Notes under the pieces: model-generated
The model's database searches: none
The model's input: the letters and a program-made list of their open reading frames with translations, nothing else
Told to the model about the DNA's origin: nothing
In this document: piece after piece, positions 9,381-31,299 of the stretch
How the letters are laid out: each line of letters starts with the position of its first letter
How positions within the stretch are numbered: the first letter of the stretch is position 1
Position numbers and translations under genes: made by a program
Assembly (NCBI GenBank): GCA_016742175.1
Contig: JACVCH010000004.1
Span: forward strand, 124,001 to 188,000
DNA length: 64,000 bases
Direction: 5' to 3'
Origin: Rhizobiaceae bacterium
GTDB lineage: Bacteria; Pseudomonadota; Alphaproteobacteria; Rhizobiales; Rhizobiaceae

Positions 9381-10850
9381 GTGCCACTCACGGGAAGATC
9401 GTTCTTGACCGCAAATCGCAAACTGAGATCGGAACCGGAAGTCGCCGCCATGCTCGCGGAGGTCGAGAGCCGGCAGGACCTCTTCTCCATCGCCGTCGAT
9501 GGGATCTCGCTTTGGAGGCTGCTGCGCTTCGAAGTGGCGCTGCAACTGCAGAACCTCGGCCTCAGACGCATATCGATGGGCCGCGCCGCCCTCTTGAAGT
9601 CTCTCCCCCGCGCGGCCGGACAGTACCTCCTTGCCCCGCGCGGCTTCAGATATCTGGGCAAGACGTCGAATTCCGGCCTGCGCGGTCTCGACGAGCGCGG
9701 CTATTTCGACATCTATTTCGACGATCTGATCGACGGACTGCCTGGTGGTGCGAAACTCAGTTCCCTCGACGCCGGCGGCTACGAGGCCAATGAGCGCGGC
9801 GCCTATCGCGAACCGGTTTTCGACGATACTGCGGTCATCGTCGCCAGCGCCGTTCTCGGCCGGATTCGCGCGCCGAGAGAAGGTGCACGCGCCTTCGGCG
9901 AGCTTGCCGGCATCCTTGACCGCGAGTTCGACCTGCCGGAATTCGCGCCGGCCCATATTGCGCGCAAGTACAGCGTTTTCGTCGCCCGGCGCGCTCTTTA
10001 CCGGCGCATCCTCAGGCGCCTCGGAGCCCGCTCGGTTCTCGCGGCCAATACCGGCCAGTTCGCGCTGTGCATGGCTGCGCGCGACATCGGCATTCCGTTC
10101 GTGGAAATGCAGCACGGGCTGTTCACCAGCAGCCATCCCGACTGCCTGCCGGCACGCGCGCTGGATGCCTCCGCCGACCTCATGCTGCCCGATCTGCTGA
10201 CCGTCTACGGAGACTATGCGGCCGGCCTCATTGCCGAGACGGCGTTGGCCCGGCACGGCAAGGTGCGCGCCGTCGGCAATCCGGCGATCGAGAAGGGTCG
10301 CGACCTGCGCGCCCGCAGTTTCCGCCCCGACCGGCAGAGCCCGGTCGTCACGCTGACGGCGCAAGGCATCGGCGACAAGGACACGGCCGCGTTTTTGGCC
10401 GAGTTCCTGCGGCGCGTTCCCGGCGACCTCACGCTGAACATCCGGCTCCATCCCGGCTACGATTCGCGCGGCGATTTCGAGCGCAGCGGCGTTCTGGGCG
10501 ACCGGCGCGTCCGGCTGATGCCCGGCCAGTCGACGCCTGCGACCCATGAGGTCATCGCGCTGTCCGATCTGCATCTCAGCGTCTTTTCGACCTGCCATTA
10601 CGATGCGCTCGGCATCGGCACCCCGACGATGGTGTTGCCCGGTGCGGGACACGAAGCCGTGGCCGACCTCTACGAAAAGGGGCATGCACGGTTGCTCGAT
10701 ACGCCCGCCGGACTTGCAGAAATCATCTCGAAAGGCCAATGGTCGGACGTACCCGAAGCGACCTCGCGCCACTTCTTCCAGCCCGGCTTTCTGGAAAACA
10801 TGCGCGCGCTTCTGAACGAGCTCCAGGTAGCCGAAAGTGGCCCGAAATGA
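9381..10850 (+). CDS. Putative surface-glycan glycosyltransferase (MQHG motif)
   Basis: A 489-residue soluble protein that I cannot place in a named family. The second half has features of GT-B-fold capsule transferases: an FVEMQHGLF segment near residue 235, a YGDYAAGL segment where many such proteins check a partner, VRAVGNPAIEKG, and a late glycine-rich loop (LGIGTPTMVLPGAGHE) like the donor-binding site. It lies between the flippase and the hisH-like gene, and its end overlaps hisH as ATGA, so it belongs to the same operon. It probably transfers one residue of the repeat unit. The start is uncertain: GTG at 9381, or TTG at 9405 behind GGGAAG. Confidence 0.6.
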   Translation: MPLTGRSFLTANRKLRSEPEVAAMLAEVESRQDLFSIAVDGISLWRLLRFEVALQLQNLGLRRISMGRAALLKSLPRAAGQYLLAPRGFRYLGKTSNSGLRGLDERGYFDIYFDDLIDGLPGGAKLSSLDAGGYEANERGAYREPVFDDTAVIVASAVLGRIRAPREGARAFGELAGILDREFDLPEFAPAHIARKYSVFVARRALYRRILRRLGARSVLAANTGQFALCMAARDIGIPFVEMQHGLFTSSHPDCLPARALDASADLMLPDLLTVYGDYAAGLIAETALARHGKVRAVGNPAIEKGRDLRARSFRPDRQSPVVTLTAQGIGDKDTAAFLAEFLRRVPGDLTLNIRLHPGYDSRGDFERSGVLGDRRVRLMPGQSTPATHEVIALSDLHLSVFSTCHYDALGIGTPTMVLPGAGHEAVADLYEKGHARLLDTPAGLAEIISKGQWSDVPEATSRHFFQPGFLENMRALLNELQVAESGPK

Positions 10851-11461
10851 TCACGATCGTCGATTACGGAACCAGCAATCTCGGCTCGATGAAGAACATG
10901 CTGAAGAAGATCGGCGTCGAGACGCGCTTCGCGTCGACGCCGTCCGATGTCGAGGACGCGACCAAGATCATCGTCCCCGGTGTCGGAGCCTTCGATGCCG
11001 GCATGCGTGCGCTCAACGGATCGGGCATGGTGCCCGTCCTCAACCGCAAGGCTCTGGAGGAGCGCGTGCCGATCCTGGGCGTGTGCCTCGGGATGCAACT
11101 CATGACGCGCGGGAGCGAGGAGGGCAAGCTCGAGGGGCTTGGCTGGATCGCCGCGGACACGGTACGCTTCGACCAGGCCGCGCATCCGGGCCTGCGGGTG
11201 CCGCATATGGGCTGGAACGAGGTCAGGATGCGCAAGCCGGACGCCATCGTCGCCAACATGCCGGAGGAGGCCCGGTTCTATTTCGCCCATTCCTATCACG
11301 TCGCCTGCGACGTGGCCGACGATATCCTTCTCGAGGCGAGCTACGGCGAGACGTTCCCGGCTGCAGTCTCCCGCGGCAACATCGTCGCCGCCCAGTTCCA
11401 CCCCGAAAAGAGCCATCGTTTCGGCATGTGGCTGCTGCGCAATTTCGTGGAGGCGCGCTGA
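10847..11461 (+). CDS. HisH-like glutamine amidotransferase, amidino-sugar set 1
   Basis: A 204-residue class I glutamine amidotransferase. The nucleophile cysteine is in GVCLGMQLM and the His-Glu pair in AAQFHPEKS, so glutaminase activity should be intact. It resembles HisH, the ammonia-producing subunit of imidazole-glycerol-phosphate synthase. In this setting, next to a HisF-like and a WbpG-like gene, it should serve sugar modification rather than histidine synthesis, as in the wbpG-hisH-hisF set of Pseudomonas aeruginosa O5, where the three proteins are linked to forming the acetamidino group. It overlaps both neighbours by one to four bases. Confidence 0.85.
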   Translation: MITIVDYGTSNLGSMKNMLKKIGVETRFASTPSDVEDATKIIVPGVGAFDAGMRALNGSGMVPVLNRKALEERVPILGVCLGMQLMTRGSEEGKLEGLGWIAADTVRFDQAAHPGLRVPHMGWNEVRMRKPDAIVANMPEEARFYFAHSYHVACDVADDILLEASYGETFPAAVSRGNIVAAQFHPEKSHRFGMWLLRNFVEAR

Positions 11462-12219
11462 TGCTGCGCACGCGCGTCATTCCGTCACTGCTTTTGAAGG
11501 GCGAAGGTCTCGTGAAGACCTCGCGCTTCAAGAACCCGAAATATGTCGGCGATCCGATCAACGCCATCAAGATCTTCAACGACAAGGAGGTCGACGAACT
11601 CGTCCTTCTCGACATCACCGCGACCAACCAGTCGAAGGGGCCGGCCTTCGAGACCATCACGCAGATCGCGAGCGAATGTTTCATGCCGGTCGCCTACGGC
11701 GGCGGCATCGCGACGGTCGACCAGATGCGCCGGATCCTGAACTCGGGCGTCGAGAAGGTCATCCTGAACAGCGTGACCTTTTCAGACCCGGCCATCGTCC
11801 GGCAGGCGGCGGACGAGTTCGGCAGCCAGGCGGTCATCGCTTCGATGGACATCAAGCGCAAGCTCCTGGGCGGCTATGAGGTCATGTCGCATTCGGGCAC
11901 GCGCAAGACCGGTCAGGAGCCGGTCAAATGGGCGAAAAGGATGGAGGAATGCGGCGCCGGCGAAATCCTCCTCAACGCCATCGACCGTGACGGCATGATG
12001 GGCGGCTACGACCTCGAACTGGTTTCGCGCGTGTCACACGCCGTATCGATCCCGGTCATCGCCGCGGGCGGCGCTGGCGCGGTGTCCGATTTCGCCAAGG
12101 CAACGGACGCGGGTGCCGGCGCGGTCTCGGCAGGCGCCATGTTCGTTTTCCACGGCCCCCACAGAGCGGTGTTGATCACCTATCCGACACGTACGCAACT
12201 GGCGGCGATGGGCTCGTGA
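11461..12219 (+). CDS. HisF-like channel subunit, amidino-sugar set 1
   Basis: A 252-residue (beta/alpha)8 barrel of the HisF family. It keeps the aspartate of SMDIKR (D130 of Thermotoga HisF) and IDRDG, but the N-terminal aspartate corresponding to D11 is leucine: the start reads RVIPSLLLKGEG where HisF has CLDVKDG. Without that residue the normal cyclase reaction is unlikely. The barrel probably passes ammonia from the HisH-like partner to the WbpG-like enzyme. The ATG overlaps the hisH stop by one base, and the GTG of the next gene overlaps its own stop. Confidence 0.85.
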   Translation: MLRTRVIPSLLLKGEGLVKTSRFKNPKYVGDPINAIKIFNDKEVDELVLLDITATNQSKGPAFETITQIASECFMPVAYGGGIATVDQMRRILNSGVEKVILNSVTFSDPAIVRQAADEFGSQAVIASMDIKRKLLGGYEVMSHSGTRKTGQEPVKWAKRMEECGAGEILLNAIDRDGMMGGYDLELVSRVSHAVSIPVIAAGGAGAVSDFAKATDAGAGAVSAGAMFVFHGPHRAVLITYPTRTQLAAMGS

Positions 12220-13316
12220 GGTACTATCGCGCACGTATCGGCTTGACCCTTGCCTTATCCATTTCAGTTTTTATCGTCTCGTGCATCTACTTATCGATGC
12301 ACGGCATCGACGCGATCGAAGGACGAAACTACTATCAGTTCTTCGCTGATGCAAATACCTATCATGAATTTGCAAGATCGATAGATTCTTTTGGTTCTCA
12401 CGAAATTATCAGCGTGGGAAGAAATCTGATCGGTCCACTTCTTGTCGTCATTGTGTCGGGCGATAACTACTATATCGTCTGCGCTCTCAACGTACTCATT
12501 TTTTACTTGTCAGTCAAAATGCTTTCTTGGGATGCTCGCATCGATCCGCTATTTTTTGCGGCGATCTTGCTCCTCAATCCCATGACAATCTCGAGTCTGA
12601 TGGCTGCCAACAAAGAAATCCTGTCACTTCTATTCCTTGCACTCCTAGTCCGCGCATGGCTGAGAAAGTCGGGTCTATGGCTGGTTTTCGCAGCACTAGT
12701 CGCAATTGGCGTCAGATGGCAACTTCTTGCATTTGTCATTCTGCTGACACCCTTTGCACTTGGTTGGCGCCTTCCGCCTCGCAATCGTGTTTCACTCCTG
12801 GTCTCGATTGCGGTGGGACTGTCGATTACGTACGCCCTCGCGCTCGAGGCGTTGTCGCATGTGACGGAAAACTTTGAAGCAGCGGCGAGTTCCTACTCGG
12901 AAGGTTCCGGCCTATTTGTGAAACTTGTTTTAATTCAAATGGATGGCCTCTATTTTCTCGTTGCGCCGATAAAGGCGGCTCACCTGCTGTTTGGCCTGGG
13001 GCTCCGCTTCGATCGGCTTCTGTCGCCTGTAGATATATACAACGACATCTGGCAACTTCTTGGATCTACCGCCCTTCTTTTGATGTTCTTGGCCCTGGTG
13101 GTAAAACGAATCTTCAGAATTCAGAACGACATAGTTTTTGTTTCGTTAATATATATTTTATTATTTTCCCTTTCACCGATCTACGCTCCACGATATTTTT
13201 ACGTTGTCTACGCCATGTGGGCACTGGTCTACTGCCTCTACCGCCAGGGAATTAAAGCACCCGATCTTGGCGGCATTCACCGGTTGCCTCCCTTGGCTCG
13301 CCAACGCAGTTGGTGA
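12216..13316 (+). CDS. Multispanning membrane protein, candidate Wzy polymerase
   Basis: A 366-residue integral membrane protein with about ten hydrophobic segments and a larger soluble loop near residues 30-65 (NYYQFFADANTYHEFARS). Wzy polymerases have this general look and little sequence conservation; its place between HisF-like and WbpG-like genes, in an operon with Wzx, makes it the best Wzy candidate in the window. It starts with GTG in a four-base overlap with the hisF-like gene. Base composition is clearly lower in G+C than its neighbours: 17 of 60 bases are G or C in 13141-13200, which is common for wzy genes and suggests separate acquisition. Confidence 0.65.
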   Translation: MRYYRARIGLTLALSISVFIVSCIYLSMHGIDAIEGRNYYQFFADANTYHEFARSIDSFGSHEIISVGRNLIGPLLVVIVSGDNYYIVCALNVLIFYLSVKMLSWDARIDPLFFAAILLLNPMTISSLMAANKEILSLLFLALLVRAWLRKSGLWLVFAALVAIGVRWQLLAFVILLTPFALGWRLPPRNRVSLLVSIAVGLSITYALALEALSHVTENFEAAASSYSEGSGLFVKLVLIQMDGLYFLVAPIKAAHLLFGLGLRFDRLLSPVDIYNDIWQLLGSTALLLMFLALVVKRIFRIQNDIVFVSLIYILLFSLSPIYAPRYFYVVYAMWALVYCLYRQGIKAPDLGGIHRLPPLARQRSW

Positions 13317-13428
13317 ACAGCCCCGTAGACCGCGCCACAATTGTTGGCTAAACGGCGCGATCACCCGAGTTCCAGAAAGCGCCGAGCCCTTGCGGCAGCA
13401 AGCGTCCCGCACCAGCGAGAGACACATC

Positions 13429-14541
13429 ATGAGCACCATCGTCTGCACGCGCTGCATCATGGACACGACCGATCCCGACATCTCGTTCGACGAGAGCGGC
13501 GTGTGCAATCATTGCCATCGCTACGATCGCGTCGCGCAGCAGCGTCTCATCCCTCTCAATGAGCGCGACGCCCGCCTGAAGCAGCTCATCGACGAGATCA
13601 AGTCCGTCGGACGCGGCAAGGATTACGACTGCGTTATCGGCGTCAGCGGCGGGGTGGACAGCACCTATGTCGCCCACATCGTCAAGGAACTGGGTCTGCG
13701 CCCCCTGGCCATCCACCTCGACAATGGCTGGAATTCCGAACTCGCGGTCGCCAATATCGAGAAGACGCTGAACACGCTCGGCATCGACCTGCATACGCAT
13801 GTCATCGACTGGGAAGAGTTCCGCGACCTGCAGGTTTCCTTCCTGAAGGCATCGACGCCCGACGGCGAGGTGCCGACCGATCACGCGATCTTCGCTCTGC
13901 TCTACGAGATGGCGTCGCGGCACGGCCTCAAGCACGTCATCACCGGCACCAACGTCGTGTCCGAGGCGATCCTGCCGGAGAAGTGGGGTTACGGCTATTT
14001 CGACTGGGCCTACGTCAAGGATGTCCACAAGCGTTTCGGCCGCGCCAGGCTCAGCACTTATCCGCACTTCTCGCTCGCGAAGCTCTTCTACTACGTCTTC
14101 GTGCGGCGCATCCGGCTGGTCTCCATCCTCAACTACGTCGAGTACGACAAGAAGGCCGCGATGGACGTGCTCGAGAACAAGCTGGGCTGGGTCTATTACG
14201 GCGGCAAGCACTACGAGTCGATCTACACGCGCTTCTATCAGGCTTACCTCCTTCCCAAGAAGTTCGACATCGACAAGCGCAAGGCACATTACTCCAACCT
14301 GATCCTTTCCGGCCAGATGTCGCGCGAGGAAGCGCTTTCGGCGTTGCAGGAGCCGGTCTATCCGGAAAAGCTGCTCCAGGAAGATCGCGAATACGCCATC
14401 AAGAAGCTGAACCTTGCGCCCGGCCAGCTCGAGGAGATCATCGCCGCGCCCAACAAGACGTTCCTCGACTATCGGACGAGCCATGCCCTGTTCGAGCGCG
14501 CCAAGAAGGTGGTCAACGCCACACGGCGCTATATCGGCTGA
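13429..14541 (+). CDS. WbpG-like N-acetyl sugar amidotransferase, set 1
   Basis: A 370-residue ATP-dependent amidotransferase. The N-terminus has two CxxC pairs (CTRC and CNHC, about residues 6-30) likely to bind zinc, followed by a PP-loop GVSGGVDSTY near residue 70 for adenylation. Members named WbpG or PseA turn an N-acetyl group of a nucleotide sugar into an acetamidino group, using ammonia delivered by HisH/HisF-like partners. Those partners are encoded just upstream, separated by the Wzy candidate. The likely substrate is the UDP-2,3-diacetamido uronic acid from the WbpB/E/D steps. The start at 13429 follows GAGAGAC; the longer upstream frame is not typical of the family. Confidence 0.87.
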   Translation: MSTIVCTRCIMDTTDPDISFDESGVCNHCHRYDRVAQQRLIPLNERDARLKQLIDEIKSVGRGKDYDCVIGVSGGVDSTYVAHIVKELGLRPLAIHLDNGWNSELAVANIEKTLNTLGIDLHTHVIDWEEFRDLQVSFLKASTPDGEVPTDHAIFALLYEMASRHGLKHVITGTNVVSEAILPEKWGYGYFDWAYVKDVHKRFGRARLSTYPHFSLAKLFYYVFVRRIRLVSILNYVEYDKKAAMDVLENKLGWVYYGGKHYESIYTRFYQAYLLPKKFDIDKRKAHYSNLILSGQMSREEALSALQEPVYPEKLLQEDREYAIKKLNLAPGQLEEIIAAPNKTFLDYRTSHALFERAKKVVNATRRYIG

Positions 14542-14551
14542 CGTCGCGATA

Positions 14552-15757
14552 ATGCGAGTCCTCTACATCCACATGATCGGCGCCTTCGGCGGCGCGTCGC
14601 GCAGCCTGGCCGAAGCGGTGCAGGCGGCCGGGCCGGACGTGAGGGCTCATTTCGTCGCGCCCTCCGGCACGGCCGCCGATCATTTCAGCGGGCTCGGCGA
14701 GGTGGTCGAGGCGCGCGGCATGTCGCAGTTCGACAACACCCGGTACAGCCACTACCGCGGCCTTCGCTGGCTGGTCCTCGCCCGCGAGATCGGATACCTG
14801 CCCTCCACCGTCCGCACGCTTCTCGAAGCCCGCCGGCGCTGGCCGGACATCGACCTCGTCCACGTCAACGAATTTACCGGCATCATCCCGTGGCTGATCG
14901 CCCGCCGGCTGTTCAAGGTGCCCGTGATCGTGCACGTGCGCTCCGTGGCGAACGACGATGCGAGCCTGCGGACACGGTTCGTCAGCCGCCTCTTTCGCCG
15001 CAAGGCGGCGGCGGTTATCGCGATCGACGAAACGGTCAAGGACAGCCTGCCCGCCGATCTCGATGTCGACGTCATCCACAATTCGTTCTCGCAAAAGCCG
15101 TCGGCGGGGGCGACCGACCTTTTCGCGAACCACGCCTTGCGCACGTCGTCGTTCAAGGTGGGGTTCGTCGGCAATCTCCTGCGCGTCAAGGGTATCCATG
15201 AACTGGTCGAGGCCGCCAGGATCGTTCGCGATGCGGGCCTCGACGTCGAGTTCATCATCGTCGGCGGCGACGCCGCCAAGCCAAAGGGCCTGCGCGCCAC
15301 GATCGCACGGATGCTCGGCGTCGCGCAGGATTCGGGCGAGGAGGTGCGCGAGGCCATCGCAACGCACGGCCTTGCGCCGATCTTCCATTTCACCGGCGCG
15401 ACGAAGGACATCGCCCAGGCTTATGCAAAGATGGATGTGCTCTGCTTCCCGTCGCATTTCGATGCGCCGGGCCGTCCCATCTTTGAAGCGGCGTTCGCCG
15501 GCATTCCCAGCATCGTCGCCGTTCGGAAGCCGAAACCGGATACGATCGTCGACGGCGTAACGGGCATTGCCATCCCGCCCCGCGACGCCCAGGCGCTGGC
15601 AGCGGCCATCGGGCAGCTTGCCTGTGACCGCGCGCGGGCCGGTTCCATGGGAGAGAATGCACGCAGCCTTGCCGAGCGCAACTTCGACCCGGCCGCCAAT
15701 GCGGCCAAGCTCGTCGCCGTCTATCGCAGGGTTCTCGGCCGCAGCCGATCCACCTAA
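14552..15757 (+). CDS. Family 4-like glycosyltransferase
   Basis: A 401-residue GT-B-fold transferase. It shows the N-terminal glycine loop (MIGAFGGASRSL, about 7-18), the hinge segment KVGFVGNLLRVKGIHEL near residue 205, and a C-terminal donor-site stretch PSHFDAPGRPIFEAAFAG with the GT4 Glu. It begins 10 bases after the amidotransferase gene and ends tail-to-tail with the dehydratase gene, where the stop codons of the two genes overlap in CTAA. It probably adds one of the locus sugars to the lipid-linked oligosaccharide. The acceptor and donor cannot be told from sequence. Confidence 0.82.
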   Translation: MRVLYIHMIGAFGGASRSLAEAVQAAGPDVRAHFVAPSGTAADHFSGLGEVVEARGMSQFDNTRYSHYRGLRWLVLAREIGYLPSTVRTLLEARRRWPDIDLVHVNEFTGIIPWLIARRLFKVPVIVHVRSVANDDASLRTRFVSRLFRRKAAAVIAIDETVKDSLPADLDVDVIHNSFSQKPSAGATDLFANHALRTSSFKVGFVGNLLRVKGIHELVEAARIVRDAGLDVEFIIVGGDAAKPKGLRATIARMLGVAQDSGEEVREAIATHGLAPIFHFTGATKDIAQAYAKMDVLCFPSHFDAPGRPIFEAAFAGIPSIVAVRKPKPDTIVDGVTGIAIPPRDAQALAAAIGQLACDRARAGSMGENARSLAERNFDPAANAAKLVAVYRRVLGRSRST

Positions 15758-16980
15758 AGCCTCTGGTCCAGATTCGCCGCCGCGTCCTTGTGCGTTGCCA
15801 GGAAGCCGGGCTCGACCATCGCGATCACCGCCTTCAGCCGATCCTTGCTCAGGGCGTCCGCCGACGCGCCGCCCATCAGCTCTTCCGTCTCGCGCAGCAT
15901 CGCCTCGATCGCCGGGCGGTCGGCCGCCAGGTAGTCGACGGCGTGCAGGTTCGGAAGGCCGATCTCGCGCGCCCGCTCGCGCTCGGTCATGAATTCCTCG
16001 TAGGGCTTTTCCCCCGAGGTGTCGAGCGCCGTCAGGAGCAGCGGCCAGCGGCCGGCACCCGCCTCGCGCCGCGCGGCCGCGCAGGCTTCGCGCTCGTCGA
16101 TGTAATGCACCGGCTCGTAGCCGTGATGCTGCAGGAATCCTTCGGCGATCGCCTGAAGCGGCACGAGGTGCTTTTCGGGGTCGAGGCGGGGGATAACGAT
16201 GGTGCGGTCCGGGGCAAGCGCGGCCGCGAGCACGCACAACTCGCCGGATTCGCGCAGCGAGACGAAATATCGGCGGGTATCGCGCGGCGCGGCCAGCGGC
16301 TCGGTGCGGGCGAGACGGTTCTCGAAGCCCTGCAGCAGCGAACCGTTGGAAAACGCGACATTGGCGAAGCGCGCCGAGGTCTTGACGCCGGGAATCGCCG
16401 CCGCGACCGCCGAATTGAACAGCACGTGCTCCATCGCGCGCTTCGACGCGCCCATCATCGAGGACGGGTTGGCCGCCTTGTCGGTCGAGACGGTGAAGAA
16501 CCGGCCCGCGAACCCCGTGGCGGCGAGCCAACCCATGAAGCGCGCCTGCTTCAACAGGTTGGTCTCGAACATCTGCAACGTCGAGAACGGGTCCTTCTCC
16601 GAACGCACGTGCTTGAGCGCGGCGAAGTTCAGCACGAGGTCGTACGGCGCCTGCGACGCCAGCAGATGGCGCATCGCCGCCGAGCCGTAGTCGAGCGGCA
16701 GCGTCTGGAAGTCGCGCGCCGACCAGATGTCGGGTTGCGAGCGCAACTGGCGGACGAGTTCGGCCAGGCCGTTTTCGTTCTGGTCGACGACGTGCAGCGT
16801 ATCGGGGCCGCGCATGGCGATCTGCAGCACGGTCGACGAGCCGATCGAGCCCGCGCCGCCGATCGCCAGCACGCGCTTGCCCGAAATCGCAGCGCGCAGC
16901 GCGTCTTCCGACTGGGCGATGTCGGCCTCGAACAGAGAGCCGGCGCGGCCGGTCGCGATGGCGTGGAGAGGTTGGGTCAT
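15754..16980 (-). CDS. CapD-like nucleotide-sugar 4,6-dehydratase, nonulosonate set
   Basis: A 408-residue SDR enzyme without membrane helices. The NAD-binding loop IGGAGSIGSS is at about residues 41-50, and an STDKAANPSSMMGASKR segment carries the Met-Lys form of the catalytic motif seen in the WbpM/CapD group. The last 100 residues extend beyond the SDR core and contain no domain I recognise. It forms a two-gene unit with the cytidylyltransferase (ATGA overlap), so it most likely supplies the 4,6-dehydratase step of the legionaminic-type pathway (the LegB role), acting on UDP- or GDP-GlcNAc. The substrate is inference from the neighbours. Confidence 0.72.
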   Translation of the reverse strand: MTQPLHAIATGRAGSLFEADIAQSEDALRAAISGKRVLAIGGAGSIGSSTVLQIAMRGPDTLHVVDQNENGLAELVRQLRSQPDIWSARDFQTLPLDYGSAAMRHLLASQAPYDLVLNFAALKHVRSEKDPFSTLQMFETNLLKQARFMGWLAATGFAGRFFTVSTDKAANPSSMMGASKRAMEHVLFNSAVAAAIPGVKTSARFANVAFSNGSLLQGFENRLARTEPLAAPRDTRRYFVSLRESGELCVLAAALAPDRTIVIPRLDPEKHLVPLQAIAEGFLQHHGYEPVHYIDEREACAAARREAGAGRWPLLLTALDTSGEKPYEEFMTERERAREIGLPNLHAVDYLAADRPAIEAMLRETEELMGGASADALSKDRLKAVIAMVEPGFLATHKDAAANLDQRL

Positions 16981-17714
16981 GTGGTCGGTCCAGTGTCCGC
17001 AATGTTCCGCGCGATCCGCGCGGCCTGAAATCGCTTCATTAGTGCCTCGGCGCAGACGAAGTCCGTCTCGTCGTCGATGTCGGCGCTGCGCTCGGGCGGC
17101 ATCACGTAGCCAAGAGCGCCGGGCGACACAACCGTCCGGCGCTGGCGAAAGCCGTGCGGGCGGATCACATAGACCGCGCCGTTGACATGGAAGAGCGGTT
17201 CCATGTCCTGCCCGCGCCGGTATCCTTCCACCGGCGGGAGGAAGTGCCGCGTCGTGCCGTCGTCGCCCAGCCGGTACATGAGTTCGGGATGCACGCCGAC
17301 GAGCGACATCGAAAACGCGCTGTCGCCGCCCCGGTCCGCAACCAGTGCCGCCGTTCCGTCGATGTCCGCGCCCGTGCGCAGCGGCGATGTCGGCTGAAGC
17401 AGGCACAGATAGTCCGGCAAAGCGCCCTCGTCCGCCTCGATCCAGTCCAGCGCGTGGGCAATCACGTCGTAATGCGAGGACGTGTCGCCGGCCAGCGCGG
17501 CCGGTCGCATGAACGGCACCTCGGCGCCGCTCGCCCGGGCAGCGTCCGCGATCTCGTCGCTGTCGGTGGAGACGATCGTCCGGCGCACGGCGCCTGCGGC
17601 CTGCGCCGCCTCACAGCTCCAGTGGATGAGCGGCCGGCCGGCAAAGGCCATGACGTTCTTTCCCGGAAGCCGCTTCGAGCCGCCGCGTGCGGTGATGAGT
17701 GCAATACAGTTCAA
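16977..17714 (-). CDS. Acylneuraminate/legionaminate cytidylyltransferase-like
   Basis: A 245-residue CMP-nonulosonate synthase of the NeuA/LegF group. The N-terminal nucleotide-binding motif LITARGGSKRLPGKN and the LLQPTSPLRT segment are both present. These enzymes activate a nine-carbon acid with CTP before transfer. With the NeuB-like synthase at 26887-27918 and the LegC- and LegG-like genes, legionaminate or a derivative is the expected substrate. No ATG fits; TTG at 17714 follows GGAAG by 10 bases, and a GTG at 17723 is the alternative. The stop overlaps the dehydratase ATG. The gene is divergent from capE. Confidence 0.82.
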   Translation of the reverse strand: MNCIALITARGGSKRLPGKNVMAFAGRPLIHWSCEAAQAAGAVRRTIVSTDSDEIADAARASGAEVPFMRPAALAGDTSSHYDVIAHALDWIEADEGALPDYLCLLQPTSPLRTGADIDGTAALVADRGGDSAFSMSLVGVHPELMYRLGDDGTTRHFLPPVEGYRRGQDMEPLFHVNGAVYVIRPHGFRQRRTVVSPGALGYVMPPERSADIDDETDFVCAEALMKRFQAARIARNIADTGPTT

Positions 17715-18891: not shown

Positions 18892-18895
18892 CGCA

Positions 18896-20008: not shown

Positions 20009-21138
20009 AAAAGCTCAAGGTCATGACCGTCGTCGGAACGCGCCCGGAGATCATCCGGCTGTCGCGCGTGATGGCCGAGCTCGACGCGCATTGTGACCAC
20101 GTGCTGGTCCATACCGGCCAGAACTACGACTACGAACTCAACCAGGTTTTCTTCGACGATCTCGGCGTCAAGAAGCCCGACCATTTTCTCGATGCCGCAG
20201 GCGCCGGGGCAGCTGAGACGATCGGCAACATCATCGGTGCCGTCGACAAGGTGCTGGCCGAGGAAAAGCCCGAGGCGATGCTCCTTCTGGGCGACACCAA
20301 TTCGTGCCTCTCGGTCATACCCGCCAAGCGGCGCAAGGTTCCCGTGTTCCACATGGAGGCGGGCAACCGCTGCTTCGACCAGCGCGTGCCCGAAGAGATC
20401 AACCGGCGGATCGTCGACCACACGGCCGACATCAACCTGACCTACAGCTCAATCGCCCGCGAATATCTGCTGCGCGAGGGCCTGCCGCCGGACATGGTCA
20501 TCAAGACCGGCAGCCCGATGTTCGAGGTGCTGCATCACTATGCGCAGCGCATCGACGCTTCCGACGCGATCCAGCGACTCGGGCTGGAGGAGAACGGCTA
20601 TTTCGTCGTCAGCGCGCATCGCGAGGAGAACATCGATTCCGACCGCAATTTCGGCCGGCTCGTCGCCATCTTGAATCGCGTCGCCGAGGATCACGGCCTG
20701 CCCGTCATCGTCTCCACCCATCCGCGCACGATGAAGCGCGTGGAGGCGACCGGTTCGACGTTCCACGACCTCGTGCGACTGATGAAGCCGCTCGGCTTCC
20801 ACGATTATGTCCGGCTGCAGAAGTCGGCCCGTGCCGTGCTGTCGGACAGCGGGACGATCAACGAGGAATCCTCGATCCTCAACTTCCCCGCCCTCAATCT
20901 GCGCGAGGCGCACGAGCGTCCGGAAGGCATGGAGGAAGCCGCCGTGATGATGGTCGGCCTGTCGGAAGACCGCGTGCGGCAGGGACTCAACATCCTCGCG
21001 ACCCAGCCACGCGGCACCGAGCGCGGCCTGCGCCTCGTCGCGGACTATTCGATGCCGAACGTGTCGGAAAAGGTCGTGCGGATCATCCACAGCTACACCG
21101 ATTACGTGAACCGCGTCGTCTGGCGCCGCTACGACTGA
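20005..21138 (+). CDS. capG: CapG/WbjD/FnlC-like UDP-sugar 2-epimerase
   Basis: A 377-residue non-hydrolysing UDP-GlcNAc 2-epimerase-family protein. Family signatures are TVVGTRPEIIRLS at the N-terminus, GDTNSCLSV, FHMEAGNRCFDQRVPEE, SAHREENID and LSDSGTINEESS. The GNRCFDQRVPEE form (rather than GLRT) is typical of the FucNAc branch. It performs the final C-2 inversion to UDP-L-FucNAc. It starts at GTG inside a GTGA overlap with capF and ends eight bases before the fucosaminyltransferase gene. Confidence 0.9.
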   Translation: MKKLKVMTVVGTRPEIIRLSRVMAELDAHCDHVLVHTGQNYDYELNQVFFDDLGVKKPDHFLDAAGAGAAETIGNIIGAVDKVLAEEKPEAMLLLGDTNSCLSVIPAKRRKVPVFHMEAGNRCFDQRVPEEINRRIVDHTADINLTYSSIAREYLLREGLPPDMVIKTGSPMFEVLHHYAQRIDASDAIQRLGLEENGYFVVSAHREENIDSDRNFGRLVAILNRVAEDHGLPVIVSTHPRTMKRVEATGSTFHDLVRLMKPLGFHDYVRLQKSARAVLSDSGTINEESSILNFPALNLREAHERPEGMEEAAVMMVGLSEDRVRQGLNILATQPRGTERGLRLVADYSMPNVSEKVVRIIHSYTDYVNRVVWRRYD

Positions 21139-21145
21139 GGCCGCG

Positions 21146-22375
21146 TTGCGCATCCTGATCCTGACGCAGTATTTCTGGCCCGAGAACTTCCGGGTCAACG
21201 ATCTGGCGTCCGATCTCATCGCGCGCGGCCACGAGGTGACGATCCTCACCGGACTGCCGAACTATCCGTCCGGCAAGGTGTTCGAGGAATACCGCGCCGA
21301 CCCAGAGAAATTCGCGCATTTCGAAGGCGCCGAGGTGATCCGCGTGCCCATGCTGCCGCGCGGCTCAGGCAGCCTGCGGCTGATGGCGAACTATGCCAGC
21401 TTCGTCCTCTCCGGCCTGACGGTCGGCGCCTGGAAGCTGCGCGGACGCCAGTTCGATTCCATCTTCGTCTTCATGATCTCGCCGATCACCGCCGTCCTCC
21501 CCGCGATCCTCCAGCGCCGGCTGAAGCGCGCGCCGCTGTTCGTCTGGATCCTCGATCTGTGGCCCGAGACGCTCGAGGCGGTGGGCGTCGTCAGATCGCC
21601 GCGCCTGCTCGCTCTCGTCGGCAAGCTCGTCAGCTACATCTACAAGCGCACCGATCACATCCTCGTCCAGTCACGCGCCTTCATGGACAATGTACGGACC
21701 TATGCCGGTGCGAATGCCACCGTCAGCTATTTTCCCGGATGGGCCGAGCCGATCTTTCAACAGGGTCTCGAAACCGAGCCGAAAGCGGCCGAAATCACCC
21801 GGTTTTCGGACAGTTTCAACGTGGTTTTCGCTGGAAATGTCGGCGAAGCGCAGGATTTTCCGGCAATTCTGGACGCCGCCGAGGCATTGCGAAAAGATAT
21901 CCCCGCACGCATCCTCGTCATTGGCGACGGCCGCATGACACCCTGGGTCGAAAAGGAAATCGTGCGACGTGGACTGTCGGACCGCGTGATCCTGCTCGGC
22001 CGCTTCCCGCTGGAGCGCATGCCGTCCTTCTTCAAGGCCGCCGGCGCTCTCCTCGTCTCGCTCAAGCGCGACAAGATCTTCGCCATGACCATTCCGGGCA
22101 AGGTACAGAGCTATCTGGCCGCTGGCGTGCCGCTCCTCGGCATGCTCGACGGCGAAGGCGGCCGCGTCATCCGGGAAGCTCGCGCCGGCCTCGTCAACCG
22201 CTCGGGCGACGGCGCGGCGCTCGCCCGCAACATCGAAGCCCTCGCCGGCATGACGCCCCAAGAACGCGCCGCCATGGGCGCCAACGCCAAGGCCTACGGC
22301 CTCGCCGAGTTCGACCGCACCCGCCTTCTCGGCGGGCTGGAGGCGAAGATGCGCGATGTGGCGAGGGGCGGCTAG
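21146..22375 (+). CDS. WbuB-like L-fucosamine glycosyltransferase
   Basis: A 409-residue GT4-family transferase. The N-terminus QYFWPENFRVNDL and the following LTGLPNYPSGKVF segment are the hallmark of WbuB, the FucNAc transferase of Escherichia coli O26. The GT-B donor half has FAGNVGEAQDFPAIL and an IPGKVQSYLAAGVPLLGM segment. Its position directly after capE-F-G supports UDP-L-FucNAc as donor. The start is TTG at 21146 behind GAGG; no ATG would keep the conserved N-terminus. It meets ptmE tail-to-tail: both TAG stops lie within the palindrome CTAG at 22372-22375. Confidence 0.87.
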   Translation: MRILILTQYFWPENFRVNDLASDLIARGHEVTILTGLPNYPSGKVFEEYRADPEKFAHFEGAEVIRVPMLPRGSGSLRLMANYASFVLSGLTVGAWKLRGRQFDSIFVFMISPITAVLPAILQRRLKRAPLFVWILDLWPETLEAVGVVRSPRLLALVGKLVSYIYKRTDHILVQSRAFMDNVRTYAGANATVSYFPGWAEPIFQQGLETEPKAAEITRFSDSFNVVFAGNVGEAQDFPAILDAAEALRKDIPARILVIGDGRMTPWVEKEIVRRGLSDRVILLGRFPLERMPSFFKAAGALLVSLKRDKIFAMTIPGKVQSYLAAGVPLLGMLDGEGGRVIREARAGLVNRSGDGAALARNIEALAGMTPQERAAMGANAKAYGLAEFDRTRLLGGLEAKMRDVARGG

Positions 22376-23415
22376 GCTCGATCGAACTCGTCCATCGCGC
22401 GGTTCAGGTCGTCCGGTTTGCCGACGTCGAGCCAGTATTCGTGCAAGGGGAAGGCGACGCGGCGGTCGGGGTGGATCTGGTCGAATAGGGAGGGCATGTC
22501 GAAGAAGCGGTCGGTCGGGATCAGGTCCAGCATTTGCGGGCTGATCACGTAGATGCCGGCATTGACGAAGAAATCGAAGACCGGCTTTTCCGAAAAGCCG
22601 GTGATGTGGTGGTTCCTGACGTCCACCACGCCGTACGGCACCTGGTACTGGTAGCGGTTGAGGCCCATCGTCGCCAAGGCGCCGTTCTCGTAGTGGAACG
22701 CCAGCATCTGGGCGAAATTGATCGAGGTCAGGATGTCGCCGTTCATGACGATTAACGGCTTTTCCGGCCGCTCGCCCAGCAGCGACAGCGCGCCGGCCGT
22801 GCCCATGCGCTTGGTCTCGCGAACGTATTCGATCTCGACGCCGAAGGCCGCGCCGTCGCCGAAATGGTCCTCGATAATCTCGGCCAGATGATTGACGCAG
22901 AGCGACACCTTGCGAAATCCCTGCTCGCGGAAGCGCTCCAGGATGCGCTCGAGGATCGGGCGGCCGCCGACCTCGATCATCGGCTTGGGCACCGTCTCGG
23001 TGATCGGGCGCAGGCGCGTGCCGAGGCCGCCCGCCATGATGACGACGCGGTGGGCGGCGGGGTCGGGCAACTCGATCTCGTCGGCCAGATGCAAGCCGAC
23101 GACGACGCCCTCGCCGTCCACGACCGGCATCTGGAAGATCATCTCCCGCTTCAGGATCGCGGCGATCTCGGCCAGCGGCGTGCCGCGCGGGACGGAGCGC
23201 GGATGGCGGTGCATGACGTCGCCGGCGGTCGAATCCAGCGTCGCGCCGCGCAGGATCGCCCGGCGGATGTCGCCGTCGGTGATCGTGCCGACCAGCCGGA
23301 ACCGCTCGTCGACGACGAGCGCGATCTGGCCGCCGCTCGCCTCGATGCAGGCGACCGCGTCGGCGAGCTTGTGCGTCTCGCCCAGACTGATCGATTTCAG
23401 CGTTTTGGTGTCCAT
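22372..23415 (-). CDS. PtmE-like hexosamine-1-phosphate nucleotidyltransferase with CBS pair
   Basis: A 347-residue protein with two CBS domains (about 8-58 and 65-115) followed by a nucleotidyltransferase domain that starts with GGLGTRLRP (129-137) and has VNGDILT as the metal-binding region. This arrangement matches PtmE, which makes GDP-glucosamine as entry into legionaminic acid in Campylobacter. It is the last gene of a leftward operon led by DUF2793 and neuB. The CBS pair may sense a nucleotide. The start is ATG at 23415; a GTG lies directly before it. Confidence 0.85.
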   Translation of the reverse strand: MDTKTLKSISLGETHKLADAVACIEASGGQIALVVDERFRLVGTITDGDIRRAILRGATLDSTAGDVMHRHPRSVPRGTPLAEIAAILKREMIFQMPVVDGEGVVVGLHLADEIELPDPAAHRVVIMAGGLGTRLRPITETVPKPMIEVGGRPILERILERFREQGFRKVSLCVNHLAEIIEDHFGDGAAFGVEIEYVRETKRMGTAGALSLLGERPEKPLIVMNGDILTSINFAQMLAFHYENGALATMGLNRYQYQVPYGVVDVRNHHITGFSEKPVFDFFVNAGIYVISPQMLDLIPTDRFFDMPSLFDQIHPDRRVAFPLHEYWLDVGKPDDLNRAMDEFDRA

Positions 23416-23434
23416 CACGGCTCAGACCCTGCCA

Positions 23435-24079
23435 TCAGCGCGCCGGCGTTCCTCTGACCATGGCCCCTGCGGCGACGTCGCGGATGACAGTCGCGCCGGC
23501 GGCAACGGTCGCGCCGCGCCCGATGCGAAGGTTCTGCACGACGACGGCGCCAGTGCCGACATGGCAGCCATCCTCGAGGCGAACGCCGCCCGACAGGACG
23601 GCACCGGGGGCAACGTGGACATGATCGCCGATCCGGCAGTCATGGTCGATGGCGGCGCGCGTGTTCACGATGACATTGCGGCCGATCACGGCGCGCGGCT
23701 GGACCACCGCGCCCGCCATGACGACGGTTCCGACACCGATGGTCGCCGAACCGGCCACGATGGCGGCGGGATGCAGCGCCGCGAAGGGCTCGAGACCGGC
23801 CGCTTTTCCGGCTTCGAAAAGCCGGGCGCGCAGATCGCTGTCGGCGCGGGTCGAGCCGACCGCGACGATGAAATGGGTCAGCCGACCGGCCGCGGCGAGG
23901 CGCGGCAAATCCGCATCGGTGCCGATGCAAGGCACGCCGAGCACCGGCTGCGCCGCGCCCGTCTCGTCGGTGAAGCCGGCGAGTTCGACATCCGCGCCCG
24001 CGCGGGCGATCGCCTGCAGGGTATCGATCACAACGACGGCGTGTCCGCCCCCGCCGATGCAGACGATCCGCCGCGTCAT
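23435..24079 (-). CDS. NeuD/PglD-like sugar acyltransferase, nonulosonate set
   Basis: A 214-residue protein of the NeuD family: an N-terminal Rossmann-like part with GGGGHAVVVIDTL (about 7-19) and a C-terminal left-handed beta helix with hexapeptide repeats (IGVGTVVMAGAVVQ, IGDHVHVAPGAVLSGG). In legionaminic-type pathways such a protein acetylates the 4-amino group of the UDP/GDP-diamino sugar (LegH or PglD role); sialic-acid O-acetylation is the other known role. Its genes on both sides (HisH-like and PtmE-like) favour the first. It overlaps the hisH-like gene as ATGA. Confidence 0.82.
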   Translation of the reverse strand: MTRRIVCIGGGGHAVVVIDTLQAIARAGADVELAGFTDETGAAQPVLGVPCIGTDADLPRLAAAGRLTHFIVAVGSTRADSDLRARLFEAGKAAGLEPFAALHPAAIVAGSATIGVGTVVMAGAVVQPRAVIGRNVIVNTRAAIDHDCRIGDHVHVAPGAVLSGGVRLEDGCHVGTGAVVVQNLRIGRGATVAAGATVIRDVAAGAMVRGTPAR

Positions 24080-24723
24080 GTGGCGAGGAATCGTTCGAGG
24101 ATCTTCTGTCCGGCCCGGCCGCTGCGCTCGGGATGGAACTGCAGGCCGGTGATGTTGTCGCGCCGGATGGCGGCGGTGACCTCGAGCCCGTCATAGTTGA
24201 CATGGGCGATGCGCTGGGCGGGATCGGCCGGCCGGCAGTGATAGGAGTGGACGAAATAGACGGCGTCGCCGGCATCCTCGGCGCCTTCCAGCGCCGTGCC
24301 GTTCCAGCCATCGTCCGTGCCCTGCGACGGCACCAGCGGCGCCCAGCCGATATGCGGCACGCGCAGGTGCTGGCCCGAAGGGCTTTGCGAGGCGATGCGC
24401 TCGACGGAACCGGGGACGAAGCCGAGGCCTTCGGTCTCGCCGAACTCGCTCGACCGGTCCATCAGCACCTGCATGCCGATGCAGATGCCCAGGAACGGCC
24501 GTTCCGTGGCGACGAAGTCGCGCAGCGCGTCGGAGATGCCCTTGCCATGAAGCGCATCCATGGCGCGGGCAAAGGCGCCGACGCCCGGCAGGATGACGCG
24601 GTCTGCGTTGCGGATGGCGGCAAGGTTGCCCGTCAGTTCCGCCTCGCTGCCGATGGCGCGCAGGGCGTTGCAGACGGAGAAGACATTGCCGATGCCGTAG
24701 TCGACGACGACGGTGCCGATCAT
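24076..24723 (-). CDS. HisH-like glutamine amidotransferase, amidino-sugar set 2
   Basis: A 215-residue class I glutamine amidotransferase, paralogous to the protein encoded at 10847-11461. The nucleophile cysteine is in GICIGMQVLMD and the His-Glu pair in GLQFHPERS, so it should release ammonia from glutamine. Its gene overlaps those on both sides as ATGA and is followed upstream by a second HisF-like gene and a second amidotransferase gene, forming the complete second set. A role in histidine synthesis is unlikely because none of the other his genes is near. Confidence 0.85.
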   Translation of the reverse strand: MIGTVVVDYGIGNVFSVCNALRAIGSEAELTGNLAAIRNADRVILPGVGAFARAMDALHGKGISDALRDFVATERPFLGICIGMQVLMDRSSEFGETEGLGFVPGSVERIASQSPSGQHLRVPHIGWAPLVPSQGTDDGWNGTALEGAEDAGDAVYFVHSYHCRPADPAQRIAHVNYDGLEVTAAIRRDNITGLQFHPERSGRAGQKILERFLAT

Positions 24724-25496
24724 GCCGCCATCTCCCGTTCGACGCGCCGCGTGTCGATGCCGGCAGCAAGGCAGGCGTCGCGGAAATCGGCGAGCGTGTG
24801 CTTTTCGAGGTGCAGGTCGCGGGCGACGGCGACCGCGCTGACATCGGGATTCTTCAACACGTCGACGACGTGCCGCGGGTTGCCGACGCCGCCGGACGCG
24901 ATGACAGGAATGTCGACTTCGCGGGCGATCGCAGCGATCAGCGCCTGATCCATGCCGCGGCCCGTCCCGTCCTGGTCGATGGAGGTGACGAGCAGTTCGC
25001 CCGCGCCGAGCTTCTGGCCTTCCACGGCCCAGGCGACCGCGTCGCGGCCGGAGTGGTTGCGGCCGTTGTCGGTCATCGCTTCCCAGCCGCCGGTGGTAAG
25101 CTTCTTCGCCTCGATCGACAGGACCGTGGCCTGCGAGCCGTAAGTGTCGGAGATCGCGCGCAGGATGTCGGGGTCCTGCGTGGCTGCCGTGTTGACGGCG
25201 ACCTTGTCGGCACCGACCGACAGCATCTCGCGCACCGCCTCGATGCTGCGGATGCCGCCGCCGACGGTGATCGGGATGAACACTTCGGAAGCGACCTCGC
25301 GCACGATGCCGGACAGGTTGTTGCGGCCGTAGAGGCTCGCGACGACGTCCATGTAGAGAAGCTCGTCGGCGCCCTGCTCGTAATAGAGCCTGGCGCGCGC
25401 CTTCGGGTCTCCCACCTTGCGCCAGCCCTCCAGATGGATGCCCTTGATCAGGTGCTCCATCTTCACGTCGAGGCGTGCGATCAGCCGTCTGTTCAT
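24720..25496 (-). CDS. HisF-like channel subunit, amidino-sugar set 2
   Basis: A 258-residue HisF-family barrel. In contrast to the set 1 protein it keeps the N-terminal aspartate ([12 protein letters not shown], corresponding to D11) but has glutamate in place of the second catalytic aspartate (LSIEAKK instead of the AIDAKR type, D130). SIDQDG near the C-terminal half is kept. Normal cyclase activity is therefore doubtful, and ammonia transfer to the amidotransferase encoded next is the likely role. The ATG at 25496 lies eight bases after the amidotransferase stop; the stop overlaps the hisH-like start. Confidence 0.85.
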
Positions 25497-25504
25497 TGCC
25501 GGTC

Positions 25505-26827
25505 TCAGTTTTCCTGGAAGACGGTGCGGCGCAGCTTCCACTCGCCGTTGTCGTAGGCCCAAAGGTGCGGGGAGCGGAACCGGTTGGCGAGCGCGTCGAA
25601 ATAGTCGCGGTCCATGATCGGGTCCTCGAACTGCTTCGAGGCTTCCGGGAAGGTTTCGGCCGGTACGCTCAGATATTCGAACAGTTCCTCGGCGAAGCGA
25701 TCCGGGAACTCGCCGTCATAGCGCTTGACCAGCGCCACGCCTTCCTCGCGCTCGATGTCGCCGGAGCGGATTTCCTGCGCGGCATCGTAGCTGGTGCGGC
25801 CGATGCCGAACTTCACGTGGGTCGTGTAGTAATGCAGGTCGTCGATGCGGTCGTCGATGGAATTATACTTCGAATATGTGCCCGGCGTGCGCTCCGGCGA
25901 CGCCTCGAACCCGCCATGCTCGACCGCGAAGTAGTAGGCCGCCTGCGGATGCCACTTCAAATAATAGCCGAGATAGTGGACCTCGATGCCCTTTTGCTCC
26001 AGCGCGCGCGGATCGGACGGCATGTAGGCGGAGAGATCGGCCTTGCGGACGCCGAACTTCGACTGGAGATCGGCGACCGACACGCCGCCGAGATAGGTTT
26101 CCTCGTCGGACGCCATGGAGAAGTAGTCGTAGTCGCGCCTGGCGCTCTCGTTGTCGGCGATGGGGTTGCCGTATTCGGCCTCGTTCTCGCCGTAGAAGAT
26201 CAGCGGGATGTCCATCTTGGCCGCGAAGCCGGGCGCGAAGCCCTTCTGGCCGATGATGAAGGGCTGGAAGGGGTGGAACAGGTTTTCGACCGCAAGGCGC
26301 GTCATCAGGCGCTTGACGCGGCCGTTCGGCGTCAGGAGATAGTTGTCGAAGCCGGAGTGGATCCAGCGGTTGAAGTTGCGCCAGCCCCAGTCCGTGTAGA
26401 TGTGCGGGGCCCAGGTGCAGGTCAGCGGGTTCATGCCGAATTCGTATTTCAGCATCCAAGACTGGTAGAACGAATCCTTGCCGCCCGATCCCGGCACGAG
26501 GCAATCATAGGAGCCGTTGCGCGAGCGGAATTTGTCGCACAGCGCGATGAGCTCGGCGCGGCGGCGGTCCCAGTCGATGACGGCATGCTTGCGCTCGGCG
26601 TTGCGGCAGGCGTCGCATACGCCCTCCTCGTCGAAGGCGATGACGGTCTTCTTGCTTTCCGCGGTGTGCTTGTACTCGACGGCGGAATTCGGCCGCTGGT
26701 TGGAAATCACGCATTTGCGGCAGAACTGGACGTTCTGGGGCAGGCCGTATTTGGTCTGGCTCGGGGCGGCGTCGGGGCCGTAGAGCGACATGTCGATCGA
26801 TTCTTTTCGCGGATCGGCATAGATCAT
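25505..26827 (-). CDS. PtmG-like N-acetyl sugar amidotransferase, set 2
   Basis: A 440-residue ATP-dependent amidotransferase of the same broad group as the WbpG-like protein, but longer and clearly distinct. Two CxxC pairs (CRKC and CDAC) lie in the first 80 residues, followed by the PP-loop PGSGGKDSFY near residue 125. PtmG-type enzymes form the acetamidino group of legionaminic acid in Campylobacter. With HisH- and HisF-like partners downstream and neuB upstream, a 5-acetamidino nonulosonate is the likely product. The start at 26827 has GAAAGG eight bases upstream. Confidence 0.85.
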   Translation of the reverse strand: MIYADPRKESIDMSLYGPDAAPSQTKYGLPQNVQFCRKCVISNQRPNSAVEYKHTAESKKTVIAFDEEGVCDACRNAERKHAVIDWDRRRAELIALCDKFRSRNGSYDCLVPGSGGKDSFYQSWMLKYEFGMNPLTCTWAPHIYTDWGWRNFNRWIHSGFDNYLLTPNGRVKRLMTRLAVENLFHPFQPFIIGQKGFAPGFAAKMDIPLIFYGENEAEYGNPIADNESARRDYDYFSMASDEETYLGGVSVADLQSKFGVRKADLSAYMPSDPRALEQKGIEVHYLGYYLKWHPQAAYYFAVEHGGFEASPERTPGTYSKYNSIDDRIDDLHYYTTHVKFGIGRTSYDAAQEIRSGDIEREEGVALVKRYDGEFPDRFAEELFEYLSVPAETFPEASKQFEDPIMDRDYFDALANRFRSPHLWAYDNGEWKLRRTVFQEN

Positions 26828-27918: not shown

Positions 27919-28015
27919 CGCTTTGGTGCTTTCCCGTCGGGGCATCTATCCGACAGGTGTTACAAGCGGCATCCGAGCGAGGCAAGCCGCCAGTCGGGGG
28001 CCTGCCCCCGTGCGA

Positions 28016-31180: not shown

Positions 31181-31299
31181 GATAAATCCTTCAATCGCCT
31201 GATTAATCGAATAAGCTTGGTTCGAGAATGTCTACTTTAAGAAAAATGATATCATCAATTTTCTCGATCACGAAGAGTTCTGGCGCCTCACTTGACCTA

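Follow-up and report, generated by a model that had tools for sequence, protein, structure and literature searches.

Two HisH-HisF-amidotransferase modules and a predicted pair of amidino sugars in a Rhizobiaceae polysaccharide locus

The window studied here, a stretch of 64,000 nucleotides from a Rhizobiaceae bacterium (positions 124,001 to 188,000 of contig JACVCH010000004.1, assembly GCA_016742175.1; G000:C9:124001-188000 in our collection), has a G+C content of 64.5% and belongs to a genome of 4.3 Mb in 34 contigs, the assembly being 96% complete. A 16S search gave no match in this genome; its GlmS shares 69% identity with that of two Rhizobiales genomes, 56-57% with Brevundimonas and Roseicyclus, and 47% with Rubrivivax. 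By gene content and profile matches it carries a Wzx/Wzy-type polysaccharide locus, in which lie two complete sets of HisH, HisF and amidotransferase, module 1 at 10847-14541 on the plus strand and module 2 at 24076-26791 on the minus strand, as had been proposed from the letters of the sequence (hereafter the original prediction). A genome-wide profile search found two amidotransferases of the WbuX type, WbuX1 and WbuX2, both inside the window. A gene for a Wzy-like membrane protein, whose product matched no NCBIfam or Pfam family at the thresholds used, stands between HisF1 and WbuX1. The genes of this core are as follows:

10847-11461, plus strand: HisH1, glutaminase subunit of module 1 (TIGR01855, 222 bits; Cys-His-Glu kept)
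11461-12219, plus strand: HisF1 of the AglZ/HisF2 family, ammonia-channel subunit of module 1 (NF038364, 365 bits, cut-off 310; model title "AglZ/HisF2 acetamidino modification protein")
12216-13316, plus strand: putative Wzy polymerase, so called from its look and place (relatives of 33-35% in loci L181 and L229)
13432-14541, plus strand: WbuX1, N-acetyl sugar amidotransferase of module 1 (TIGR03573, 310 bits, cut-off 203)
24076-24723, minus strand: HisH2, glutaminase subunit of module 2 (TIGR01855, 190 bits; Cys-His-Glu kept)
24720-25496, minus strand: HisF2, WbuZ-like, ammonia-channel subunit of module 2 (TIGR03572 WbuZ, 261 bits, below the cut-off of 299.7)
25505-26791, minus strand: WbuX2, LpNASAT/PtmG orthologue, amidotransferase of module 2 (TIGR03573, 371 bits, cut-off 203; structure 8WEX, E 5e-210)

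Both amidotransferases are members of the N-acetyl sugar amidotransferase (WbuX/NASAT) family, and amidine formation is predicted for them. Their translations contain the PP-loop SGGxDS, as SGGVDS in WbuX1 and SGGKDS in WbuX2, and the zinc tetracysteine CxxC...CxxC, as CTRC/CNHC and CRKC/CDAC with a pair spacing of 16 and 31, respectively. WbuX2 is identical to the solved Legionella enzyme LpNASAT (8WEX) at 286 of 415 ungapped positions (69%), on which its fold is assigned; WbuX1 is distant from 8WEX by sequence (48 bits), and its AlphaFold model (predicted local distance difference test score, pLDDT, 88.9) has 8WEX as top Foldseek match (E 1.9e-14, template modelling score 0.61-0.68). In the mechanism that we propose, the HisH of each module would release ammonia from glutamine, HisF, having lost its cyclase function, would channel it to WbuX, and this PP-loop/zinc enzyme would activate an N-acetyl group with ATP and swap its oxygen for NH. 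Since the Cys-His-Glu triad of HisH is intact in both modules, glutaminase activity is expected of both.

That one of the sets is in truth the histidine pathway enzyme has a close to negligible probability. HisH1 and HisH2 both pass the histidine HisH model, being two of the three HisH over its cut-off in the genome, but the third stands outside the window on contig C34, together with a HisF and an intervening weak (85-bit) hisF-model match taken for HisA, so that neither module is the only HisHF of the genome. Of the three HisF proteins, only the C34 copy exceeds the hisF cut-off, with HisF1 and HisF2 below it. The comparison with true HisF that the original prediction had called for separates three groups (approximate likelihood-ratio support, SH-aLRT, 86, 90 and 100) in an alignment of 30 true HisF, one per genome (31 genomes were sampled from the whole phylum, and 30 gave a match), and 46 module HisF from 32 hand-chosen loci, with the partial row L127 removed. 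Two catalytic aspartates, which we take to be positions 11 and 130 of Thermotoga maritima HisF, are both present in 30/30 true HisF; the first is lost in all 32 proteins of the HisF1 type (Leu in 31, as in the window, and Val in one), and the second is Glu in all 14 of the HisF2 type, the window's copy included. The filter for reading HisF required LD[VIM] close to the start of the protein, which touches the first of these aspartates; no locus failed it. From these residues, cyclase activity is not expected of HisF1 or HisF2.

The two modules are also clearly diverged from each other, in agreement with the original prediction: in a FastTree phylogeny of 185 WbuX sequences (3 of 188 rows dropped by length), WbuX1 and WbuX2 are parted by the longest inner branch, which has a length of 1.55 substitutions per site. 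Likewise borne out was the association of each with a different sugar pathway, namely WbpB/D/E genes (5456-8075) for module 1, and NeuB (26887-27945) and PtmE (22372-23418) for module 2. Missed at that stage were a fnlABC cassette, which sits between the two modules, and the remaining genes of a legionaminate route at 15754-17714 and 41665-44067. The genes that bear on the substrate of module 1 are these:

4077-5411: UDP-glucose-type dehydrogenase (UDP-glucose dehydrogenase-like, 553 bits; TviB type, 70 bits)
5456-6517, plus strand: WbpB/WlbA-like UDP-sugar 3-dehydrogenase (nearest solved relatives 3q2k/3q2i, 317/299 bits; next 105)
6514-6981, plus strand: WbpD/WxcM-like acetyltransferase, putatively for 3-N-acetylation (TIGR03570, 73 bits, below cut-off; WxcM-like 4mzu, 53 bits)
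6978-8075, plus strand: WbpE-like sugar aminotransferase (2oga, 338 bits; WbpE 3nyu, 243 bits)
17857-21138, plus strand: fnlA-fnlB-fnlC, UDP-L-FucNAc cassette (FnlA 610 bits, below the cut-off of 730; FnlB by NF047837 556 bits and the WecB-type member 224 bits, both above cut-off)
21146-22375, plus strand: WbuB/WcaI-type glycosyltransferase (NF007640, 123 bits, below the cut-off of 276)

The locus thus offers module 1 two substrates, the WbpB/D/E product and UDP-L-FucNAc. On gene context, the best candidate substrate is the WbpB/D/E-type 3-amino sugar, most likely a uronate; we take 3q2k/3q2i to be WlbA, a uronate enzyme, the structure table giving oxidoreductase/dehydrogenase only. In a careful tree of 79 of the 185 rows, hand-picked and with bootstrap values not fully settled, WbuX1 falls in a tight clade of nine rows (100/99), eight of which have gene context (the window and the relatives' loci L048, L049, L050, L136, L177, L178 and L183; L176, of 3.9 kb, was left out). 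WbpB/D/E-type genes accompany it in 8/8 of these loci, those of L178 being divergent (45/29/38%), and fnlB in two, the window and L183. No fnlB was seen around L048 and L049 (60 kb each), L050 (38 kb, to the contig end), L136 (76 kb), L177 (49 kb) or L178 (59 kb), and across the 76 kb of the locus in genome G1109 no open reading frame had FnlA, FnlB or FnlC as its best match. As a side observation, L048 and L049 have a FnlA-like dehydratase with no FnlB seen in 60 kb, and one L-sugar may replace another in the repeats of such relatives.

The cassette overlooked before nonetheless provides a serious rival substrate: module 1 could make L-FucNAm from the fnlABC-derived UDP-L-FucNAc and leave the WbpB/D/E sugar un-amidinated, as in the repeat of Plesiomonas shigelloides O51, GlcNAc3NRA-L-FucNAm-QuiNAc (PMC3210612, PMC6222762). 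The gene content of the window, with fnlABC and a WbuB-type transferase at 17857-22375, would fit such a repeat, WbuX1 shares a deeper superclade with the fnl-linked enzymes, and the outer members of its clade L179, L181 and L229 carry a FnlA-FnlC pair instead of a close WbpD, which in these and in L180 reaches 28-34% only; this last point also tells against the uronate. However, the five rows with a nearby FnlB as their only marker (L175, L042, L043, L137 and L157) form a clade of their own (100/100) that excludes WbuX1, and a joint clade of WbuX1 with the fnl-linked enzymes costs 121 log units and is rejected by the approximately unbiased (AU) test at p-AU 3.6e-7, a value that is optimistic as the groups were picked after the first tree. 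WbuX1 is only 43% identical to the Escherichia coli enzyme of L175, an O118/O151-type locus whose glycan, we assume, contains FucNAm. Taken with the 6/8 tight-clade loci in which fnlB was not seen, this makes L-FucNAm an improbable product of module 1. Two different amidino sugars, as in the original prediction, are the best reading of the genes. The label of module 1 as WbpG-like stands as far as the WbpB/D/E context goes but not for the isomer: a WecB-model search of the assembly for a WbpI 2-epimerase found FnlC and NeuC only, so that a gluco-configured product is predicted in place of the manno form made by Pseudomonas aeruginosa O5.

For module 2, the locus holds a candidate for every step of the legionaminate (Leg) route:

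15754-16980, minus strand: LegB-like 4,6-dehydratase (PF02719, 107 bits; 3pvz, 278 bits; no NCBIfam match at E 1e-15)
16977-17714, minus strand: CMP-nonulosonate synthetase of the LegF/NeuA type (PF02348, 77 bits; TIGR03584 PseF, 163 bits, below cut-off)
22372-23418, minus strand: PtmE-like nucleotidyltransferase with CBS domains (PF00483, 138 bits; PF00571, 53 bits)
23435-24079, minus strand: LegH/NeuD-type acetyltransferase (TIGR03570, 201 bits, above cut-off)
26887-27945, minus strand: LegI/NeuB nonulosonate synthase (TIGR03569, 401 bits, barely above cut-off)
41665-42819, plus strand: LegG/NeuC hydrolysing 2-epimerase (TIGR03568, 398 bits, above cut-off)
42823-44067, minus strand: LegC-family aminotransferase (TIGR04181, 385 bits, below the cut-off of 420)

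Two neighbours of these genes may be mentioned. A DUF2793 protein, presumably of a family belonging to phage-tail-like gene sets, adjoins NeuB at 28016-29176. The Leg genes are split by a stretch at 29630-41680 with GtrA, a family 2 glycosyltransferase (GT2), a large membrane protein, RmlA/RmlB-like genes, an aminotransferase, WbqC, PhyH and methyltransferases, which resembles a system for side-chain decoration of the Gtr type.

The structure 8WEX has a disordered segment, some 15 residues long, that the rest of the family was described as lacking (PMC10607449). The 15-residue zinc-loop insert is present in WbuX2, whence its cysteine-pair spacing of 31, and a spacing of 29-33 occurs in 20/67 WbuX2-type rows and 0/118 WbuX1-type rows, the pattern being unreadable in 20 of the 185. 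Within the clade around WbuX2 the spacing is 31-33 in 19/20 rows, the twentieth being truncated; outside it, the readable rows have 16-18, apart from one at 29 and one at 42. The insert is a marker for a whole clade of legionaminate-linked amidotransferases and not for LpNASAT alone. The ptmG homologue of Legionella pneumophila, ORF 28, has been assigned to CMP-Leg5Am7Ac (PMC3766260), and we infer that 8WEX is its product. Because of this assignment and the Leg genes for every step, the predicted product of module 2 is likely Leg5Am7Ac; LegC and LegF score below curated cut-offs, so the sugar is best called legionaminic-type. The locus holds two modules and one NeuB, and both could in principle modify a single nonulosonate, one at N5 and the other at N7, which would also suit the 10/118 WbuX1-type rows with a NeuB within 10 kb. 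Yet the other 108 lack it within 10 kb of the fetched sequence, many stretches of which are short, and the WbuX1 type hence does not need a nonulosonate; we regard a shared nonulosonate as very improbable.

The pairing of the two modules recurs well beyond the window. WbuX exceeded the cut-off in 138 genomes, 26 of which (our own included; counted by hand) have at least two copies within 25 kb on one contig; among 68 annotated loci, two or more WbuX occur in 23, of which 10 have HisH and HisF in two copies each as well. Complete sets from both WbuX superclades are combined in 12 loci, namely the window, L048, L049, L050, L136, L137, L183, L226, L179, L177/L256, L178/L259 and L255, the last on an Azospirillum plasmid, the one examined of the plasmid records listed (19 and 14). 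For L177, L178 and L255, WbuX2 was assigned by best BLAST hit and not by the tree; L226, L177 and L178 come from metagenome-assembled genomes, in which mis-binning is possible; and L054 was excluded, as it has rows on both sides but its second copy is below cut-off on a branch 2.16 long. NeuB occurs in 11 of the 12, the region upstream of L179 lying outside the sequence read, and WbpB/D/E-type genes in 10, L137 having fnlABC and L179 a FnlA-FnlC pair instead. L137 is without the zinc-loop insert. The second WbuX of L177, L178 and L179 shares only 30-31% identity with WbuX2 and goes with a HisF of the HisF1 type, so the sugar may differ there. In the family scan, 3/393 genomes have both superclades, where 0.53 would be expected (p 0.012; own genome excluded, no correction for kinship). 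A different clustering was seen in L125 (G577:C33:197000-214444), with three WbuX within about 6 kb, two HisH and two HisF, all WbuX of the WbuX2 superclade.

Further genes of the locus are listed here:

8075-9361, plus strand: Wzx flippase (PF01943, 64 bits)
9381-10850, plus strand: g9381, unnamed protein of the GT-B fold, candidate glycosyltransferase (AlphaFold and Foldseek)
14552-15757, plus strand: GT4 glycosyltransferase (PF00534, 88 bits), which adjoins WbuX1 here and in relatives
44095-46784, minus strand: initiating sugar-phosphate transferase and WbpM-like dehydratase (TIGR03025, 197 bits; PseB/FnlA-like domain, 189 bits; both below cut-off)

By eye, GlmS-like, phosphomannomutase-like and ManC-type transferase-like genes adjoin the locus at 47799-52669. 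The protein g9381 had no NCBIfam match at E 1e-5 and no Pfam match at 0.001; its AlphaFold model (pLDDT 82.6) has GT-B fold proteins as top Foldseek matches, UDP-GlcNAc 2-epimerase being the best and TagF, BshA and MurG lower. In a search with the window protein as query, which favours close relatives, its family was found in 13/13 loci with both WbuX types versus 7/135 others (Fisher p 5e-14, kinship uncorrected), the latter made up of 4/34 other loci with NeuB and 3/101 without. L180 and L184, among the 13, have only a single HisHF set in the sequence retrieved; the plasmid locus L255 brings the count to 14/14, and the doubtful L054, with no g9381 relative at threshold, would make it 14/15. 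From its modelled fold and this company, g9381 is a candidate transferase that may add the nonulosonate or join both amidino sugars.

We favour, at a probability of about 0.6, a single Wzx/Wzy surface polysaccharide whose repeat would hold two amidino sugars. PtmE, LegB, LegC, LegH, LegG, LegI and LegF would lead to CMP-Leg5Ac7Ac, which module 2 would convert to CMP-Leg5Am7Ac, and WbpB/D/E would yield, most likely, UDP-2,3-diacetamido-glucuronate, which module 1 would turn into its 3-acetamidino form. The modules could instead serve two glycans, for example flagellin or a second polysaccharide for module 2 and the surface polysaccharide for module 1. In the window the two lie on opposite strands and the Leg genes are split, in L056 a compact Leg cluster contains module 2 only, and the amidino nonulosonates of Campylobacter jejuni decorate flagellin (PMC7099621). 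Against such a division, both whole modules are co-stranded in 9/12 paired loci; in L048, L049, L050 and L183 the order is WbuX2-HisF2-HisH2-WbpB-WbpD-WbpE, then g9381-HisH1-HisF1, all on one strand, and in L048, L050 and L183 a single Wzx is annotated between WbpE and g9381, and so between the modules. Also g9381 is linked to the pairing, and the genome has no MptE-like (PF01973) match, a weak negative as this model matched in four archaeal controls only. Two separate glycans are for us an unlikely reading.

Several further observations weigh against a single doubly amidinated polysaccharide. On the side of module 1, the likeness of WbpD to solved structures is weak, as its bit score with 4mzu tells, the WbuX tree has no biochemically proven uronate amidotransferase such as P. 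aeruginosa WbpG as anchor, and a UDP-GlcNAc 6-dehydrogenase of the WbpA type was not located in the locus, 4077-5411 being of the UDP-glucose type (the genome was not searched for WbpA). On that of module 2, HisF2, like LegC, LegF and FnlA, scores under its curated cut-off, and the Leg genes are scattered over 28 kb. As to the pairing, the opposite strands recur in L255, WbuX1 is inverted in L050, L056 lacks module 1, and only 6/12 paired loci (the window, L048, L049, L050, L136 and L183) have close orthologues of both WbuX (at least 75% and at least 66%).

Each module is of a known kind; for their recurrent pairing in one locus, we recognised no description in the open-access library searched. 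The system nearest to module 2 is that of Legionella, whose LpNASAT (ptmG, ORF 28) shares with WbuX2 the ungapped alignment, the inserted segment and the adjoining nonulosonate genes; the Legionella O-chain is a nonulosonate homopolymer (PMC3766260), to which the window's locus adds a second amidino module and genes for other sugars. For module 1, the comparison is with WbpG-HisH2-HisF2 of P. aeruginosa O5, which makes ManNAc3NAmA and where, as we assume for the gene order, HisH-HisF-WbpG stand with WbpB, WbpD and WbpE. Like that cluster, the window has HisH, HisF and WbuX beside relatives of these three genes; unlike it, the window has only FnlC and NeuC by the WecB model and no located WbpA-type dehydrogenase, this likeness being one of gene content. 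The role of WbpG is taken from PMC10607449, as is the L-FucNAm system WbuX-WbuY-WbuZ of E. coli O145, which resembles the window in having a three-gene module by fnlABC; in contrast to the E. coli fnl-linked enzyme of L175, WbuX1 stands outside that clade. Cluster B of Sphingomonas sp. LM7, a cell-surface polysaccharide cluster with insertions in these genes among colony-form mutants, combines WbuX, HisF2 and HisH with an aminotransferase, a WxcM-family acetyltransferase and a MviM-family dehydrogenase; in the accessible part of that report (PMC11340318) one such module is described, compared to two in the window. Like the window, C. jejuni 12664 has genes for two amidino nonulosonates, Pse5Ac7Am and Leg5Am7Ac, which however belong to flagellin glycans that are not settled by nuclear magnetic resonance, and represent two nonulosonates instead of two sugar classes in a Wzx/Wzy polysaccharide (PMC7099621). 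The original prediction thought a glycan with two amidino sugars unusual. We recognised no polysaccharide of this type in that library, which covers few older O-antigen structure papers and not the classic ones on P. aeruginosa; the pairing itself, recurring in 12 loci, is less exceptional than the word implies.

Going further, the pairing could point to widespread undescribed zwitterionic polysaccharides, in which an amidino-uronate would be linked to an amidino-nonulosonate by the g9381 family, with modules, flippase and transferase passed between lineages as a unit, a proposal that we put forward tentatively and with the odds somewhat against it. Several handles follow for related loci: the residue losses of HisF separate sugar modules from histidine enzymes, the zinc-loop insert serves as marker of the legionaminate-linked clade, and an unnamed GT-B family accompanies the pairing. 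Amidino groups make acidic sugars zwitterionic, and the resulting pattern of surface charge matters for adhesion, for the binding of cations and for recognition; a recurrent locus with two amidation modules for one glycan, if true, would mean that dual amidination is selected for.

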